Assembly (NCBI GenBank): GCA_027622555.1
Contig: JAQBYJ010000040.1
Coordinates: forward strand, 1-42,964
DNA: 42,964 bases
DNA from: Verrucomicrobiota bacterium
Lineage (GTDB): Bacteria; Verrucomicrobiota; Verrucomicrobiia; Opitutales; UBA2995
Direction of reading: 5' to 3'
The position numbers were made by a program, and so were the translations under genes. Positions 2,286 through 11,287 of this stretch are shown here, in pieces; position 1 is the stretch's first letter, and the number at the start of each line of letters is the position of its first letter. A model generated the notes under the pieces. The model saw only the letters and a list, made by a program, of their open reading frames with translations. It was not told the DNA's origin and made no database searches.

Positions 2286-3332
2286 TTGTTAGCAAAGTCC
2301 GCTTTTCCCAATAATGAAAATATCTTAATTAATTCAAATCCCAATCGACTGAAAACATATCCCACATCATTCCCGGCCCGTATTCGGACTGCTTTATTTT
2401 CACTCTTTGTTTTAGGCGTTTACGGTAGCACTTCATTAACCGCAGCCTATCCAGAAAAACCGATCAAAGTGATCGTACCGACCAATGCCGGTGGAGAGAC
2501 TGATGGCCTGACACGCTTACTGCAAAGAGCGATCGCTGAGAAAAAACTGCTGCCTGAAAAAATGGTGGTGGTAAACCTTCCGGGTGCGGGCGGCACCCTC
2601 GGAACCAGAAAGATCAAACAAGCAGAACCGGACGGCTACACCATCGGCCTTTGGCATTCCGGAATCGTCACCTCCAAAGCAATGGGGATTGTCGATTACG
2701 ACCACAATGATTTCGAATTGATCTGTATGACCGGCTATACGGAACTCCTACTCGGGGTCACTGAAAAATCCAGGTTTGAATCGATCGAAGGTCTCCTGGA
2801 CATCGCCCGCGCTGATCCCCGTTCAGTAAAAGTCTCAACCAACGTAGGCTTACCGGTACACCTCATACCATTGTTATTTGCAGAAGAAGCCGGTGTCGAA
2901 TTCCGGTTCATACAAACGGGTGGCGGCTCCCCACGGCTAACTTCCCTGTTAGGCGGCCACAGCGACATGACCATGCTGTCTACCATGGCATTTGTAAATT
3001 TCAGGGATTCGGGGCTCAAACCCCTTGTCACCTTTTCCGGGAAGCGAGACCCCATGTTTCCGGAGGTTCCGACGGCCAAGGAAATTGGAATCGACGTAGA
3101 ACTCGTTGAAATACGAGTCTGGCTGGCTCCCAAAGGAACTCCCGAACCTGTTTTGGAAATGATCCGCAACGCCCTTGAATCGGTCATGACGGACCCGAAA
3201 ATCGCCGAGGAAATGAAAAGCCTGGGTGTAGTACCCGAATACGGCGGTCGAGAAATCGCCCAACCGCTGCTGGATGTTCTCCTCGAAAAAGTGGCTCCGT
3301 TGGTAGGGAAAGCACGTAACATGGATCGTTAA
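2286..3332 (+). CDS. tctC: Tripartite tricarboxylate transporter substrate-binding protein (TctC/Bug family)
   Basis: Periplasmic solute receptor of the TTT (TctCBA) importers, which capture organic acids and hand them to the TctA/TctB membrane pair. A hydrophobic signal segment at residues ~36-54 is followed by YPEKPIKVIVPTNAGGETDG, the Bug-family start with the first ligand loop. The second ligand loop NLPGAGGTLGTRK and the motif EPDGYTIG follow. Length is normal for the mature family. The N-terminus is uncertain: only a TTG (2286) lies upstream of the signal segment in frame, it has no properly spaced Shine-Dalgarno, and it gives an unusually long n-region. The gene opens a tight operon, with tctB starting 10 bp after its stop. 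The ligand cannot be predicted. Confidence 0.88.
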   Translation: MLAKSAFPNNENILINSNPNRLKTYPTSFPARIRTALFSLFVLGVYGSTSLTAAYPEKPIKVIVPTNAGGETDGLTRLLQRAIAEKKLLPEKMVVVNLPGAGGTLGTRKIKQAEPDGYTIGLWHSGIVTSKAMGIVDYDHNDFELICMTGYTELLLGVTEKSRFESIEGLLDIARADPRSVKVSTNVGLPVHLIPLLFAEEAGVEFRFIQTGGGSPRLTSLLGGHSDMTMLSTMAFVNFRDSGLKPLVTFSGKRDPMFPEVPTAKEIGIDVELVEIRVWLAPKGTPEPVLEMIRNALESVMTDPKIAEEMKSLGVVPEYGGREIAQPLLDVLLEKVAPLVGKARNMDR

Positions 3333-3342
3333 GTTTGGGTCT

Positions 3343-3822
3343 ATGAGATCACTCTATAGTTCCATCCAAGACTATGTTATCAGTGTCTTTACGATAGTAC
3401 TTGCCGGACTGGTCCTCTGGGCAGCGCAGGACATTCCACCACCCTTTTTTGATCCACTGGGCTCAGCGGCCGTGCCAAAGGCATGTGCCTACCTCCTAAT
3501 CATCCTGGCACTGGCCATCTCTGTAAGAAATTTTTTCAGGAACAAAGCCTCAGCCAACTCGAGTACCGAAGATGAGGGATTCAAACGCGAACCGATTCTC
3601 GGTATTGCTGTAGTCGCATTGTCGGTACTTTACATCTTGTCCATGGGAGCTGGTTGGGTTGGTTTCAGATGGGGAACTATTCTGTATATAGCCATCACCG
3701 GATCTCTATTAGCCAAGGGCAATAAACGAGTCATGTTGATCAGCCTGGCATTCGGACTTTTGTTTGGTTTCGGAGGTCAGCACTTGTTCACCGATTTCTT
3801 TTATATCGATCTTCCGCAATAA
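3343..3822 (+). CDS. tctB: Tripartite tricarboxylate transporter small membrane subunit TctB
   Basis: A 159-residue inner membrane protein with about four hydrophobic helices (near residues 14-30, 46-62, 86-104 and 112-150), the size and topology of the small TctB subunit. The second half ends in a glycine/phenylalanine-rich helix and a short polar tail. TctB associates with TctA and is needed for transport, though its precise function is less clear. It lies between tctC (10 bp upstream) and tctA (13 bp downstream), and its assignment rests as much on this position as on sequence, because TctB diverges quickly. Confidence 0.88.
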   Translation: MRSLYSSIQDYVISVFTIVLAGLVLWAAQDIPPPFFDPLGSAAVPKACAYLLIILALAISVRNFFRNKASANSSTEDEGFKREPILGIAVVALSVLYILSMGAGWVGFRWGTILYIAITGSLLAKGNKRVMLISLAFGLLFGFGGQHLFTDFFYIDLPQ

Positions 3823-3835
3823 TCGCTTCCCATCC

Positions 3836-5326
3836 ATGGATCTGCTTCAAGCCTTTCAATACCTCCTGACACCTGAGCCAATGATGTGGCTTATGATAGG
3901 TGTCGCCAGTGGTATTTTTGTTGGAGCCATCCCCGGACTGAATGGGGGTATGTTGATGGTGCTCACCGTGCCACTTACCTTTTCGATGGACTCCACCCAT
4001 GCCGTACTCCTGCTGATGGGTATGCATGTGGGGTCCGTTTCCGGAGGTCTTATTAGCGCAACGCTGTTGAAAATGCCGGGGACGCCATCAGCCATGATGA
4101 CCACCCTCGACGGTTATCCCATGGCGCAGCAAGGAAAGCCAGACGTGGCTTTGAGTCTGGGAATTGGGGCATCGTTTTTGGGTGGTTTAATTTCGGCGGT
4201 TTTCCTGATTATCCTGGCACCTGCGCTGGCAACCCTGGCATTGAAGTTCGGGCCCTGGGAGTATTTCTCCCTGGTGCTAATGGCCTTAGTTCTTATATCG
4301 ACCATCTCCCAAGGAACGATGCTGAAAGGGTTACTTTCAGCCATGCTCGGAATCACGGCTGCACTTCCGGGTCTCAATGCTTCGGACGGACAACTACGCC
4401 TGACGTTTGGCCAGGAATCCATGACCGACGGGTTCAACCTGCTTCCCGTTTTGCTCGGAATATTTGTGATGAGCCAGCTCATTAAAGACACGGTTGAGCT
4501 GAATAAAAAAGCAACGAGTATATCGCTGAAAAACTCACGCTTGTTTCCAAAGTTAAGTACCTGGAAAAAGCAAACGACCAACCTGCTCCGCTCGTCCATC
4601 ATTGGAACCTGGATTGGAATATTGCCCGGAGTTGGAGCAAGCATTTCCTCGATGGTATCCTATGGTATAGCCAAAGCTTTTAGTAAAACTCCGGAAAAGT
4701 TTGGCACCGGTCATGACGAAGGTATCGTCGCTTCCGAAGCAGCCAACAACGCAAACGCAGGCGGCGCACTCATCCCGCTGATTACCATGGGGATTCCCGG
4801 AGCACCCGTGGACGCCATTCTCCTCGGTGCCATGATCATGCACAATATACAACCTGGGCCGCTATTGTTTCAAACAAACGGATCGTTGGTGTGGGCGCTG
4901 ATGGGAGGATACCTGGTAGCCAACATTTTGATGTTTTTGATCATGCTCTTTTCAACCCGAATCGTGGCCAAGGTGATCAACATCAACCGAGCTTATCTAG
5001 TCCCCGTCATATTTGTGTTCTGCCTGATTGGAGCGTTTGCTGAGAGCAATCGTTTATTCGATGTATGGCTGGTTATCGTTTTTGGCCTTGTAGGATTTTT
5101 TCTGGATAAGGCCAAGTTTCCTCTAGGCCCATTCGTGATTGGCTACGTTCTTACCTCATTTCTGGAAGAGAACTTGCGGTCGGGATTGCAGTCCTCAGAT
5201 GGTTCCTACCTACCCTTGCTAACTCGTCCCCTATCTTTGGTTTTTGTGCTCGTTGCAGCAGCGTTTTTATTCCTTCCGTTTTATACCGAATGGAACCGGA
5301 AAAGAAAACAAAGGCTGGTAGACTAA
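3836..5326 (+). CDS. tctA: Tripartite tricarboxylate transporter large membrane subunit TctA
   Basis: A 496-residue polytopic permease, the normal TctA length. Two family hallmarks are present: an N-terminal IPGLNGG loop near residue 35 and an internal ILPGVGASISS loop near residue 265, each preceding polar, conserved stretches. A long Ala/Asn/Gly-rich motif (SEAANNANAGGALIP) is also typical. The ATG at 3836 was chosen because it gives the usual short N-terminus before the first helix. An upstream in-frame ATG at 3764 would overlap tctB by 59 bp. It closes the tctCBA operon. No regulator for this operon is in the window. Confidence 0.93.
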   Translation: MDLLQAFQYLLTPEPMMWLMIGVASGIFVGAIPGLNGGMLMVLTVPLTFSMDSTHAVLLLMGMHVGSVSGGLISATLLKMPGTPSAMMTTLDGYPMAQQGKPDVALSLGIGASFLGGLISAVFLIILAPALATLALKFGPWEYFSLVLMALVLISTISQGTMLKGLLSAMLGITAALPGLNASDGQLRLTFGQESMTDGFNLLPVLLGIFVMSQLIKDTVELNKKATSISLKNSRLFPKLSTWKKQTTNLLRSSIIGTWIGILPGVGASISSMVSYGIAKAFSKTPEKFGTGHDEGIVASEAANNANAGGALIPLITMGIPGAPVDAILLGAMIMHNIQPGPLLFQTNGSLVWALMGGYLVANILMFLIMLFSTRIVAKVININRAYLVPVIFVFCLIGAFAESNRLFDVWLVIVFGLVGFFLDKAKFPLGPFVIGYVLTSFLEENLRSGLQSSDGSYLPLLTRPLSLVFVLVAAAFLFLPFYTEWNRKRKQRLVD

Positions 5327-5430
5327 ATTTCCGCCGACTCGACGGTTCTCAAACAAATTGGGGCAACAATATTGAAAGTCTACACCCAGAGCAATCGCCA
5401 AGACTGTTTCGGCCTTGAAAGTCCTTAGGT

Positions 5431-5507
5431 GGTAGGGCAAGGGCGTCCCGGCTATGCCGTCACTATCCCAGAAATACACGGCGCAGCGAGGACGCTGCTG
5501 CCCTACC
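5431..5507. repeat. 77-bp imperfect palindrome, candidate dispersed repeat
   Basis: The outer arms read GGTAGGGCAAGGGCGTCC (5431-5448) and, as reverse complement of 5490-5507, GGTAGGGCAGCAGCGTCC. They match at 15 of 18 positions. The GC-rich arms and AT-richer centre resemble REP/BIME-type elements that occur many times per genome, but only one copy is in the window, so its repetitive nature is inferred. Confidence 0.5.
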
Positions 5508-5565
5508 CTCCAATTGGCGAAGTGATCGATTACATCCCGCATTATTGTTTCACCCATAGTTGGTA

Positions 5566-5678: not shown

Positions 5679-6548
5679 ATGAACGCTCTGCGAATTTCCA
5701 GAACCCTGATATTAGTAGTAGTTTTCATTTCGGCGACGGTCGGATTAAACGCCTGGACCTCGTATAAGAAAGTTTATGTTCACACCGATGCGAGTCCTGA
5801 GTATCTGGCACAACGGTCCCCGGACAAACCGGAAAGTTACTACTTCTTTGAGGGCATGTATTTTGGCGGGCGTATCAATGACAAGAGCCTAAAGAAAGTG
5901 GAGTTTATTGAAATTGCTCAGGGGCTGGCACCCCACCTGGCGAAACAGGATTACTGGCCAGCACAAAGCAAAGAGACCTGCGACCTGTTACTCATTGTTA
6001 GTTGGGGAATCACCGAAGTGGACGCTTTTAAGGACATTTATTTGGATTACCTCAATGACGGTTACTTCGATAACTTCATATCCACCTCATTTTTCCACGA
6101 TCAAAGATACTCCTACGAGACAGTGCAGGCAGCCAAGCTAATAGGATTTTATCCACACCTGAACTGGGATCGTTACGACATCATACCTCACTTTCGTCAC
6201 CAGGACTATGAGTTGAGGGAAGCTTTGGACACTGAACGGTATTTTATGATCGTAACCGCCTTCGACTTCCAGGCACTGGTAAGCGATAAGCAATGGAGAC
6301 GCGTTTGGTCCACGCGTTTCAGTATGCGTTCGCCGGGCACAAATTTTTACAAAGCGCACCTGGCACTCAGTAAAGCCGGGGGAAATTACTTCGGGAAAAA
6401 CCTGGATAAGCTCGGAAAAGAACGAGCCGATTTTGATCCTATAATCGCAGATGTTGAAATAGGCGAAATCGAAGTGCTTGAAACCATCGATTCCCCTACT
6501 CGCAGGGGAATAATGAATTCAATTCGTTTGTCAGAAGATCGCCGCTAA
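5679..6548 (+). CDS. Exported protein of unknown function, paralogue A of a tandem pair
   Basis: I do not recognise this 289-residue family. Residues 1-25 form a signal peptide (Arg-containing n-region, hydrophobic core ILVVVFISATVGLNA). The mature part opens with Tyr-Lys-Lys-Val-Tyr-Val-His and is rich in aromatic residues. Blocks shared with the downstream paralogue include PESYYFF, DYWPAQSKETCDLLL, an IVTAFDFQ strand, KQWRRVWSTRFSMRSPG and a C-terminal VE.GEI.VLETID. One cysteine is conserved. The middle (residues ~110-160) is the least conserved region. The mix of beta strands and charged loops suggests a compact periplasmic or surface domain. No catalytic motif is evident. Confidence 0.75.
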   Translation: MNALRISRTLILVVVFISATVGLNAWTSYKKVYVHTDASPEYLAQRSPDKPESYYFFEGMYFGGRINDKSLKKVEFIEIAQGLAPHLAKQDYWPAQSKETCDLLLIVSWGITEVDAFKDIYLDYLNDGYFDNFISTSFFHDQRYSYETVQAAKLIGFYPHLNWDRYDIIPHFRHQDYELREALDTERYFMIVTAFDFQALVSDKQWRRVWSTRFSMRSPGTNFYKAHLALSKAGGNYFGKNLDKLGKERADFDPIIADVEIGEIEVLETIDSPTRRGIMNSIRLSEDRR

Positions 6549-6677
6549 GGCCTGATTTTTCAAAAGGAAGAATATCTTGTAGTTTATTAACTGGAGGGAC
6601 AGACTTAGGGCGAAATAAGTTAGTTCGTTGTGACCTCACATTTTTTTAGGATCTCAAAAAGGACACCAAAGTACCCC

Positions 6678-7547
6678 ATGAAACAAAGGATTCACTCACG
6701 CCCCATCCGGAGCCTGGTTTTTGTAATCGGGCTTGGTTTGCTTACGCTCAATCATGCTGATGGCTACAAGCGAATATATATCCATTCTGATGCCGAGGAG
6801 GACTACCTCGCCCAACGATCATCGGATCATCCAGAGTCATATTATTTCTTTAAGGGTGTTCACTTCGGTGGTTATGTAAACGACGCTTCCCTAAAGAGAA
6901 CTCAGTTTATCGATATCGCCAAAGGAATGGCCCCGCACCTGGCGCAACAGGATTATTGGCCGGCCCAGAGCAAGGAGACTTGCGATCTCTTATTGGTCGT
7001 AAGCTGGGGCACAACCAGTCCCAACATGCATAGGGACGTATCCAATAGTATTTTCAGGGACACCTTAGACGGTGAGTATTACGATAATATCGCAAACGAA
7101 GATTATGACGAATCAGATTTTCGTTGGTTTGGACAGCAAAGAAATTCGAAGCTGCTTGGATTTTACCCTTACATCCGTAGAGACCGAATGATTCGCATAA
7201 GCCCTCAGGAAGAATACGAGCTTCGGGTAGCCATGCGTGATCAACGCTATTTCATAATCGTAACTGCCTTCGATTTTCAAGAGCTCCTGAACAATAAGCA
7301 GTGGAAACGCGTATGGTCCACTCGTTTCAATATGCGTTCACCCGGGATCAGTTTTGAGAATGCCCATATGGCATTGAGCAAAGCAGGTGCCTCCTACTAC
7401 GGCCAAAAATTAAAAGATCTGGAACATAAAAAGGCAGATCTTGATCCATTCATCGCGGAGGTCGAAATGGGCGAGATCCAGGTCCTGGAAACCATCGACG
7501 TTCCTCAGGGACCCGGCATCCTGAATTCACTCCGCTTACCTGAGTAG
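6678..7547 (+). CDS. Exported protein of unknown function, paralogue B of a tandem pair
   Basis: A 289-residue paralogue of the preceding gene, 129 bp downstream, by eye about half identical and with the same length. The ATG at 6678 is preferred over an in-frame GTG at 6630 because it puts a conventional signal peptide (basic n-region, core SLVFVIGLGLLTL) at the N-terminus and restores equal length with paralogue A. It shares the blocks PESYYFF, DYWPAQSKETCDLLLV, YFIIVTAFDFQ, RVWSTRFNMRSPG, AH.ALSKAG and VEMGEIQVLETID. The pair differs mainly around residues 110-160, where B has an Asp/Glu/Tyr-rich insert-like stretch. Function is unknown; conservation with a variable centre suggests a common scaffold with a diverged surface. 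Confidence 0.75.
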   Translation: MKQRIHSRPIRSLVFVIGLGLLTLNHADGYKRIYIHSDAEEDYLAQRSSDHPESYYFFKGVHFGGYVNDASLKRTQFIDIAKGMAPHLAQQDYWPAQSKETCDLLLVVSWGTTSPNMHRDVSNSIFRDTLDGEYYDNIANEDYDESDFRWFGQQRNSKLLGFYPYIRRDRMIRISPQEEYELRVAMRDQRYFIIVTAFDFQELLNNKQWKRVWSTRFNMRSPGISFENAHMALSKAGASYYGQKLKDLEHKKADLDPFIAEVEMGEIQVLETIDVPQGPGILNSLRLPE

Positions 7548-7617: not shown

Positions 7618-7950
7618 ATGACCCACGAAGAATTAGTTCCAATAAAAAAGGCCATTGAGATCCGCATGACGGAGCTAACGAGCATCCTTCAAACCAAGAC
7701 CGAAGACACAAAACCCATTGAGCCCGATGTTTCCATCGGCCGATTGTCGCGGCTCGATTCTATGCAGATGCAGCAAATGGCTCTCGAGCAAAGACGAAGG
7801 AAGGAATCCGAGCTGCAAAAACTTAAAAATGCACTCAAACGAATGGAGGACGGCAGCTACGGAACCTGCATGATGTGCCGTCAACCCATTGCACCTGCTC
7901 GATTGGAAGCACAACCCGATGCGATTCTTTGCATAAACTGTGCGCCGTAA
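7618..7950 (+). CDS. DksA/TraR family C4 zinc-finger protein
   Basis: A 110-residue protein: an N-terminal coiled-coil hairpin (residues ~1-78, Glu/Lys/Gln-rich) and a C-terminal zinc finger with Cys-X2-Cys (TCMMC) and Cys-X2-Cys (CINC) about 20 residues apart. This is the layout of DksA/TraR proteins, which enter the RNA polymerase secondary channel and modulate initiation, often with ppGpp. It is shorter than E. coli DksA (151), and the coiled-coil tip lacks an obvious DxxDxA acidic signature, so it may be a DksA-like rather than a canonical DksA protein. The ATG at 7618 is preceded directly by AAGG. Confidence 0.85.
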   Translation: MTHEELVPIKKAIEIRMTELTSILQTKTEDTKPIEPDVSIGRLSRLDSMQMQQMALEQRRRKESELQKLKNALKRMEDGSYGTCMMCRQPIAPARLEAQPDAILCINCAP

Positions 7951-8092: not shown

Positions 8093-11000
8093 CTAGAGAT
8101 CTATATCCACACTGATGATAAATTGACGTGGTGTCTTCCGTGCAACCCGGAGGTTGTTTCCTACAACTGACTTAATTACCGGGAATGTACCCGCGTCATC
8201 AAGAATGTTGCGGATCGTTCCTTGAATGCGGTAGTTCCTATCTCCGAATAGCTTGATTTTCCCACGATAGCCCCCAGTTAAGTCAAAGGTCATATCGACG
8301 GCTCCAGAAAGTTTTTTATCCAGATCAGGCGACTCAACGCCCGCGACGATAATTTCTTCGTAACCTACCGTTGGGGCATCGCGCCAGCGCATAGCACCAC
8401 CCAAATTCCAACCATTTAATTTTCCTTCAGTAAAGCGGTAGTTCACGTTGAGGTTGGCGGACTTGGCCCGGTCAAATTCATTCGCTTTTCCGTCCAATGC
8501 CTTGATCAGAGTGGCCCCGATCGGTCCGTTCACAGTGACGTTCTGGTAATACTCCGATATGGTCCCATTATTCAGGTTATTCTCATTTTGCCAGGCCGTT
8601 TCCCAGGTCCACGCAGGAGCACCAGGATCAATGCCCCCAATTAAGCCATCGCCATCGAGGTCGCGAGGATTGCCTACTCCCCCTTCAGGAACGCTGAATT
8701 TGGTCCATGAATCTTCCAGGCGCTCCTCGATCCACTGAAACCAGATGTTACCAATATTGGATTCAACCGCCTCCCGACTGGTATAAGTTAAACGAATGTT
8801 CAATCCTTCGATGGGACGGGCGGTAATCTGAATTTCCTCTCCGGTTGAGGTGTTGTCACTCATCACCCAGTAACAACAACGACCGCGTTCGCGGAAACCA
8901 CCGGTTCCTGCACCAGGATAATCATCCACGCCGGTTAAGGTACGGTAACGATTGGCCACGTCCCAAACCGGATCACGCCAGCGATTGAATGGAGTATTTG
9001 CCGCACGGCTGGGACTAGAAGAAAGTTCGAAGTCATTGTATTTTATGGAAAGCTTGTCGTCAAAGAGATCCAGCCTGATACCTAGATCCTGTCCCTGTCC
9101 TTGGGCACCAGGATATTCTGTTCCATAGGGATCAAAACGACCAATATTTGGCTGGAAAGTATCGGACTCATTCCAGAAAAGGCTCAACCAGGGTATCGGA
9201 CGTACTACAGCCCCTTTGGTGCGAGTGATACCACTTTGTGGGGCTTCCCATTCACCAAATACGGAGTCATCCACATGCGGGTAAAGCCCGGTTCCTCGCG
9301 TGCCATTCGGGTGAGCACCGGCACTATTGGAGTCGTCTCTATCCACATCGATGAAATTTTTTGCCTTGGCGGTATCTTTCCTCCAACCAAAGGTGGTGAC
9401 GATTCTATTTTCCCAGAAAAACCCTTGGTAGCCAAACTGCCTGGTATCCAATTGCGTATTAATTCCTTGTGGAGCATTATTAGATACCAATCTTTTTCCT
9501 TGAGCGTCAAAGTAACCTGTGTTGTTTGGATCAATCGTCCAGGACTTCCCGTTTTCATCCTGGATAGTGATAGGGCGACCATCAAAAGTGAAATCAGTCG
9601 GTTGAGCTATATAACCATTCTCTTCGGTCAGGTACATACGTGCGCCTAACCCACGAGCGCCCGTATCCGCCCAACGTCTACCAGTCAAACCATTGGCAAA
9701 GTCTGAATTTGCGAAGGAGGGTTCTTCCAAAGTATTTATATCTGGAAGAAAGCGATACCGATAGCCTTGTTGGCCTAGGCCGGTTAATGCCTTGTCGCTA
9801 GATTTAAGAGCGGCAACCCGATGCCGACCAAAAAAACGAAGGATGCTATCAAACTTCGCCTCAAAATCAAACTCGTAGGACATGGTGGCCCGCCAGTTTT
9901 CACTCGTGTTCGTGTTGTTTTGCCATGAAGGAACACCGTCGACATAAAAATCTCCTAAATGAGGATTCGGAGTAACTCCGTCGCCAAGGAACAGATTGGG
10001 GTCTACTTTCACAGTACGATCTTCAATTCCCTGGTCCCATTCTTTAACAATTTGATCCTCTTTGTGAGCTCCTAACTCAATGTACCAATTCTCAGCCAGC
10101 TTCTGTTCAATGAATACGTCATAAATGTCAGCTTCGGAAGAATGCCGTTCTACAGCACCAGCCATATTCACTTCCAATGCGCGCGGGAAAATCGAGTTAT
10201 CGAGTAAGGTATAGCCGTCCGCTTCAAAGTTAACCGCAGACACTCCTGGCAAGTTATGTGGCGAGTCGATGGTCGCCATGGTCCTATAGGTTGTGGTCGG
10301 TTGTTGAAATGTACCGTCATTATTGATCAGAACAGTCGGTTGCGCGGGACCATTATTATAGATCAGCGGCAATCCGCCTAGCTGGCCATTGCTTCCTATA
10401 AATGCCCCATTATCAAAGCCGGGCTTCCCCCAACCAAACCAAGGTGAGACGTTGTCATAAGGCAGAAAGCGATTTACTCGGGAAAAATCACGCTCAGCGT
10501 GCTCGAAGTGAGCCATGATAGTCGTATTTTCAAACGGCTTATAAGTAATCGTCGCATAGACCCGCTGATCTTCATCAAAGTTCGGTTTCCAATCCTGTTT
10601 GGTATCCTTGTTTAACAGCGCGACACGAATAGCCAGCTTATCTTCAATCAATACCTTGTTGTAATCCAAAGCGACACGGTGACCTTCAAAGGAATCGACC
10701 TGAAAACTGATTTTGCCAAAATCTTCGCTGATTTCAGCACGATTCAAAGTCACGTCTAAAACACCAGCTGGTTGACCAGTTCCGAACAGAATGGACTGTG
10801 GACCCGATGCAATCGTAACCCGTGACACATTGTAGTTCTCCGAATTGGTAAAGGCCTGGAAAAAATTTCGCGATACGGTTCCTTCCCCGACTCCACGAAT
10901 CTGTTGGGCAACTCCGGCAGCCTGGTTTCCAAAACCATCTCCATTACCGCTTACACGGTCTTCCGCGTTGGCCACGTTCAGGGAATAAATGAGGGACTCC

Positions 11001-11287
11001 TCCAGAGAGTTGATGGCATAGTCTTGCATGAATTCCATGGTGAAAACTTCAACCTGGGCAGCCACATCCTTAAAGTTCGTTCTAAGACGAGTTCCAGCGA
11101 GAGTCTCGGTGGCAACCCAGCCTTCTTCCGGTTGGATGGTGAATGGGGAGAGTTCAAAGATATCGGCGTCATCTTCTTGAGCGAAGACGGCGGCTGAGGC
11201 AAGGAACCCAATGGGCACCAGTATGACAGGCAATCGCATCCACTTTTGGAATAGACCGTTGGTAACAGTTTTTTGAGAATTAATCAT
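8093..11287 (-). CDS. TonB-dependent outer membrane receptor
   Basis: A 1064-residue receptor for energised uptake of a large nutrient across the outer membrane. A signal peptide ends near residue 36 (AAVFA-QE). It is followed by FELSPFTI (44-51) and TLAGTR (62-67), a start I associate with Opitutia receptors, then the plug domain, with AQVEVFTMEFMQDY leading into strand-rich sequence. The rest is a long beta-barrel ending FIISVDIDL. AAGGA (11297-11301) sits 9 bases before the ATG and is one of the better ribosome sites in the window. It is divergent from a LacI-type regulator, 232 bp away, which points to control by a carbohydrate. Substrate unknown. Confidence 0.92.
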   Translation of the reverse strand: MINSQKTVTNGLFQKWMRLPVILVPIGFLASAAVFAQEDDADIFELSPFTIQPEEGWVATETLAGTRLRTNFKDVAAQVEVFTMEFMQDYAINSLEESLIYSLNVANAEDRVSGNGDGFGNQAAGVAQQIRGVGEGTVSRNFFQAFTNSENYNVSRVTIASGPQSILFGTGQPAGVLDVTLNRAEISEDFGKISFQVDSFEGHRVALDYNKVLIEDKLAIRVALLNKDTKQDWKPNFDEDQRVYATITYKPFENTTIMAHFEHAERDFSRVNRFLPYDNVSPWFGWGKPGFDNGAFIGSNGQLGGLPLIYNNGPAQPTVLINNDGTFQQPTTTYRTMATIDSPHNLPGVSAVNFEADGYTLLDNSIFPRALEVNMAGAVERHSSEADIYDVFIEQKLAENWYIELGAHKEDQIVKEWDQGIEDRTVKVDPNLFLGDGVTPNPHLGDFYVDGVPSWQNNTNTSENWRATMSYEFDFEAKFDSILRFFGRHRVAALKSSDKALTGLGQQGYRYRFLPDINTLEEPSFANSDFANGLTGRRWADTGARGLGARMYLTEENGYIAQPTDFTFDGRPITIQDENGKSWTIDPNNTGYFDAQGKRLVSNNAPQGINTQLDTRQFGYQGFFWENRIVTTFGWRKDTAKAKNFIDVDRDDSNSAGAHPNGTRGTGLYPHVDDSVFGEWEAPQSGITRTKGAVVRPIPWLSLFWNESDTFQPNIGRFDPYGTEYPGAQGQGQDLGIRLDLFDDKLSIKYNDFELSSSPSRAANTPFNRWRDPVWDVANRYRTLTGVDDYPGAGTGGFRERGRCCYWVMSDNTSTGEEIQITARPIEGLNIRLTYTSREAVESNIGNIWFQWIEERLEDSWTKFSVPEGGVGNPRDLDGDGLIGGIDPGAPAWTWETAWQNENNLNNGTISEYYQNVTVNGPIGATLIKALDGKANEFDRAKSANLNVNYRFTEGKLNGWNLGGAMRWRDAPTVGYEEIIVAGVESPDLDKKLSGAVDMTFDLTGGYRGKIKLFGDRNYRIQGTIRNILDDAGTFPVIKSVVGNNLRVARKTPRQFIISVDIDL

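Follow-up and report, generated by a model that had tools for sequence, protein, structure and literature searches.

Genes A and B, which lie next to each other in the analysed window (the whole stretch of DNA, 42,964 nucleotides), encode exported paralogues of a family that, judging from profile comparisons, is probably homologous to DUF4136 (PF13590). We read this family as a divergent, multi-copy DUF4136-like branch, enlarged by a variable insert and an additional module at the C-terminus, and thus as a distant relative of the poorly understood DUF4136 envelope proteins. An earlier sequence-only reading had described the pair as of unrecognised family, to be given up if a profile search placed both proteins confidently. 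Neither A nor B gave a significant match in Pfam, NCBIfam, PHROGs or PADLOC, nor any DUF4136 hit; relatives of the two proteins and profile-profile comparison nevertheless point to DUF4136. The word 'unrecognised' is therefore too strong, and 'divergent, below every curated cut-off' describes the family better. The features of the locus are listed in Table 1.

Table 1. Features of the A/B locus in window coordinates.
Feature	Position	Strand	Remarks
tctC-tctB-tctA, tripartite tricarboxylate transporter genes	2286..5326	+	upstream of A
Gene A, exported DUF4136-like paralogue	5679..6548	+	ATG start, 289 aa
Sec-type signal sequence of A	5679..5759	+	27 residues, no lipobox Cys; sequence inspection
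Variable insert of A	6012..6188	+	about residues 112-170; separates two conserved blocks
Gene B, paralogue of A	6678..7547	+	289 aa counted from ATG 6678
Sec-type signal sequence of B	6678..6764	+	29 residues, no lipobox Cys; sequence inspection
N-terminal core of B	6840..7010	+	residues 55-111; YYFFKG...F..IA..LA..L....Y....DLLLVVSWG
Variable insert of B	7011..7187	+	about residues 112-170
C-terminal core of B	7245..7475	+	about residues 190-266; RYFIIVTAFD...W.TR...G..F..A...YYG...VEMGE
DksA/TraR-type zinc-finger protein (cluster c22)	7618..7950	+	downstream of B
TonB-dependent receptor	8093..11287	-	convergent to the A/B pair

As the sequence-only reading had proposed, A and B are a tandem pair of exported paralogues of equal length with Sec-type signals, which were called by eye from the sequence. 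They are separated by an intergenic gap of 129 bp (6549-6677), and BLASTP found 152 of 286 residues to be identical (53%, E 2e-111). The longest open reading frame of B begins at GTG 6630 and encodes 305 aa; the start was placed at ATG 6678, as favoured by the signal sequence and by the L040/L052 orthologue. Identity between the mature chains was 11-18 per 20 columns in the conserved parts and 4-8 per 20 columns in mature columns 81-160 (about residues 108-187). The divergent middle that had been assigned to residues ~110-160 is thus real, and the zone is somewhat longer. Two conserved blocks flank the variable middle across the family. The motifs WPAQSKETC and RVWSTRF, taken earlier as a sign of a shared structural core, were identical in A, B and the orthologue in genome G002 and nearly so in two other close relatives, and in the wider family they shrink to 'DLLivVhwG.T' and 'RYF...AyD...lW.TRyS'. 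A dN/dS of 0.07-0.10 was obtained for B and its G002 orthologue (most other pairs were saturated at synonymous sites), indicating that B genuinely encodes a protein and is subject to purifying selection.

Further copies, a count of which the sequence-only reading had suggested as a check, were found. The source genome contains 10 family copies at six loci, namely the A/B pair, a three-gene array on C31, a pair on C60 and single genes on C141, C229 and C19. When 53 relatives were searched, members were present in 14 genomes, and 55 members were collected from relatives in all. In an evenly drawn sample of the phylum, 29 of 387 genomes contained members, all belonging to one order of Verrucomicrobiota; this search scored the best few candidates per genome, and its copy numbers are lower bounds. 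As far as sampled, the family is confined to that order, and no relatives were found in the viral contigs scanned.

A phylogeny of 53 members united A and B in a clade of five (support 100/100). B grouped with the orthologous genes of G002 (82% identity of the mature chains) and G001 (63%), while A was unresolved beside its nearest relative, L060 (63% identity), which comes from another genus. The A/B duplication therefore looks older than the species, with an exact date impossible. The three-gene arrays L041 and L047 paired 1:1 in the tree, indicating that such arrays are inherited and not constantly remade. Some copies are broken: in-frame stops occur in G006:C11 and G002:C99, and in the single-contig genome G001 a member at L051:7571-8455 is spread over two reading frames, probably a decaying copy or a frameshift.

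The relationship to DUF4136 was visible in the wider family. Six of 38 members matched PF13590 below threshold (best E 6e-4), and in the members shown in detail these weak matches map to one place, comprising a TY.F strand, a helix and a DLL strand. The counterpart of the N-terminal core of B in these relatives matches DUF4136 positions 9-78. The proteins that PF13590 picked up in the relatives were of three kinds: canonical DUF4136 lipoproteins, which exceeded the cut-off, intermediate (bridging) lipoproteins just below it at 23-31 bits (L096-L099, L108 and L110), and members of the A/B family at 19-22 bits. The best family members reached 20.7-21.6 bits against a gathering cut-off of 32.8 bits. 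Because the family stays below this cut-off and A and B lack a lipobox, we describe it as DUF4136-like without counting it as a member.

Comparison with hhalign aligned the family with the bridging lipoproteins at 96.4% over 199 columns when signal peptides were included, and at 94.8% with a score of 59 when they were removed; 60 column-shuffled bridging alignments scored 13.6 on average and 28.5 at most. The bridging lipoproteins matched canonical DUF4136 at 96.8% with signal peptides and 76-90% without. Direct comparison of the family with canonical DUF4136 gave 84% with and 39-56% without signal peptides. Shuffled canonical alignments scored no more than 18.3 in 99 of 100 runs, compared with 35.3 observed; the single run that scored 136 ended at the end of the template and was taken, after inspection, for an hhalign artefact. 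Seventeen unrelated neighbour families gave 1.8% or less. An L-x14-D pair was fully or almost fully conserved in each of the three alignments (L88/D103 in the family, L72/D87 in the canonical set and L74/D89 in the bridge). Used alone, the five-sequence A/B subfamily matched canonical DUF4136 at 0.6% and the bridge at 9.6%, so the DUF4136 assignment rests on the wider family.

These results make it improbable that the family is independent and resembles DUF4136 through a chance combination of a helix and a hydrophobic strand starting with Asp. Such a reading would suit the PF13590 scores, the lack of a DUF4136 hit for A and B themselves, the drop in the direct comparison once signals are removed, and the AlphaFold models, which show no clear fold. 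It is at odds with the near-full-length match to the bridging lipoproteins, far above the shuffled and unrelated controls, with the identical L-x14-D spacing in the three sets, and with the fact that the DUF4136 model matches several members independently. Structure prediction, which the sequence-only reading had suggested as a check, was carried out, but the two AlphaFold models (three input sequences) had a pLDDT of 39 and were too poor to use; the order of elements in both was strand-helix-strand-insert-helix-strand-strand-helix. Foldseek and VIA-align searches with these models gave a best Z of 3.6, which is not meaningful, and the absence of DUF4136 structures among the hits carries no weight. 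A PDB profile search with the family returned nothing significant. A BBE match in A (E 0.025) was rejected as chance, as were other isolated weak Pfam hits, because none recurred across the family.

DUF4136 proteins (PF13590; related PDB chains 4l8n and 4f54) are exported or lipid-anchored, and the A/B family has in common with them an export signal, the order of core elements, the L-x14-D pair and the weak model hits in several members. Unlike DUF4136, A and B lack a lipobox; they also exceed it in length by about 100 residues and contain the extra insert and a C-terminal module with a VExGEIEVL motif. The lipobox cysteine was invariant (C21) in the local canonical set and absent from the signal sequences of A and B; within the family it was confined to a handful of distant members, L073 and L076 among them. 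The bridging lipoproteins, which come from the same order ('CASTYSFKVDAIN...'), align with the family across the two conserved blocks, and this match takes in the C-terminal 'VWS...Y(V/F)G.N'. The C-terminal core of B is shared with them and lies past the aligned part of canonical DUF4136. Unlike A and B they possess the lipobox cysteine, and unlike the A/B family they were not seen in tandem arrays in this analysis. Canonical DUF4136 genes occur several per genome in some genomes of the order (G213, G495 and G509), with up to seven matches in G213. DUF4136 proteins have been listed in outer-membrane or extracellular vesicle preparations (PMC12285230, PMC12893005), and one is encoded in a Burkholderia biofilm operon, where its function was described as unknown (PMC5192318).

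Across 80 members, 33 positions were conserved in more than 75% of the sequences, and they consist of Gly, aromatic, aliphatic, Thr/Ser, Asp and Arg residues. No His, Cys or Glu and no candidate catalytic set was present among these 33 positions, a pattern that favours a role in binding or in structure. Our best explanation as a whole, held with middling confidence, combines a DUF4136-like core with an accessory role in the envelope. A and B would be Sec-exported periplasmic proteins, probably associated with the outer membrane, each predicted to combine a DUF4136-like beta-alpha-beta core with a C-terminal module particular to the lineage and an insert that changes fast. They would derive from old duplications in a multi-copy family of the order, with purifying selection keeping both. 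Somewhat doubtfully, we infer that they are non-catalytic envelope accessories in which the core docks an envelope partner, the insert gives each paralogue its specificity and some copies serve an upstream TonB-dependent receptor. The constant blocks would then hold the fold or the partner, and the A/B pair behind TctCBA would serve uptake of the substrate of that locus.

The same conservation pattern makes it quite unlikely that these are secreted enzymes, acting for example on sulfated polysaccharides alongside neighbouring sulfatases and glycosidases. Sulfatases, GH43, GH31 or sialidase-like genes do adjoin several copies, and the L040 contig, which holds the B orthologue, belongs to KW1-S08_24, a MAG of a Verrucomicrobiota from deep-sea nodule sediment with a CAZyme-type diversity among the highest of its sediment set (PMC10367259). 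However, there is no recognisable active-site set, A and B have no Pfam or NCBIfam enzyme match and no such match recurs across the family, and proximity is weak evidence because sulfatases are so numerous, with at least 150 sulfatase-domain matches in the 6.0 Mb source genome. An association with adjacent, convergent sulfatases at about 11 loci was set aside for this reason and because many of the loci are orthologous.

The genes upstream of A raise another alternative, equally unlikely in our view, that A and B capture solutes as additional subunits of the TctCBA transporter. The order tctCBA followed by a family gene is kept in three genomes, the same tct clusters preceding the B orthologue in G001 and G002 (loci L046 and L052); a c22-cluster gene also follows the B orthologue in G001 (L046). 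Yet TctC, the known binding subunit, is already in the locus (2286-3332; the TctC model PF03401 found it at 6e-33 and gave no hit for A or B), most other members lie away from Tct genes, and the distance from tctA varies between about 100 and 360 bp. Least probable of all is that these are polymorphic surface or defence proteins with a middle driven by conflict with phages or neighbours: the variable insert and the many copies, some of them broken, would fit, but PADLOC gave no match and PHROGs no significant one, the low dN/dS holds over the gene, and the arrays are orthologous between species and not lineage-scrambled.

The receptor link proposed for some of the envelope accessories draws on the neighbourhoods of other members. 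At seven loci (L041, L045, L047, L050, L066, L080 and L070), all from family f1 and G016 (f10), the gene immediately upstream has the same orientation and encodes a TonB-receptor homologue, and at L070 the gap between receptor and family gene is 2 bp. In the source genome three of the six loci touch a receptor. With 47 plug domains found in 6.0 Mb, such adjacency is expected at about 2% per locus (binomial p about 2e-4, from a rough gene count). No receptor stood beside the family gene in 20 loci from other genomes, mostly of family f13, so the receptor link is not general. We consider it a long shot that the order has arrived at a SusD-like solution, in which exported partners with an unvarying core for docking and a variable insert for recognition would each be paired with their own TonB-dependent receptor or transporter and would have diversified by tandem duplication. 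A multi-copy family of polysaccharide-degrading Verrucomicrobiota that profile libraries had missed now has a name and a remote relative, and its receptor-linked copies offer a concrete handle on what DUF4136-type proteins do.

Elsewhere, unrelated genes adjoin the family, including those for Dus, a MacB-type permease, a histidine kinase and PFOR. At loci L041-L080 and L123-L142, about 72% of family gene groups had a convergent downstream neighbour, compared with 41% of other genes in the same stretches (figures from crude ORF calling, with related loci counted separately). Family genes are thus often the last of their transcription unit. Immediately upstream of one family member, and in its orientation, L043:95-4203 encodes an adjacent pair of related proteins (651 and 674 aa), neither with a Pfam match. 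Between tctA and A, a GC-rich palindromic element (GGTAGGGCA...TGCCCTACC) occupies positions 5429-5510; it is a REP- or MITE-like dispersed repeat, of which the genome contains about 20 more complete or partial copies that are 76-98% identical.
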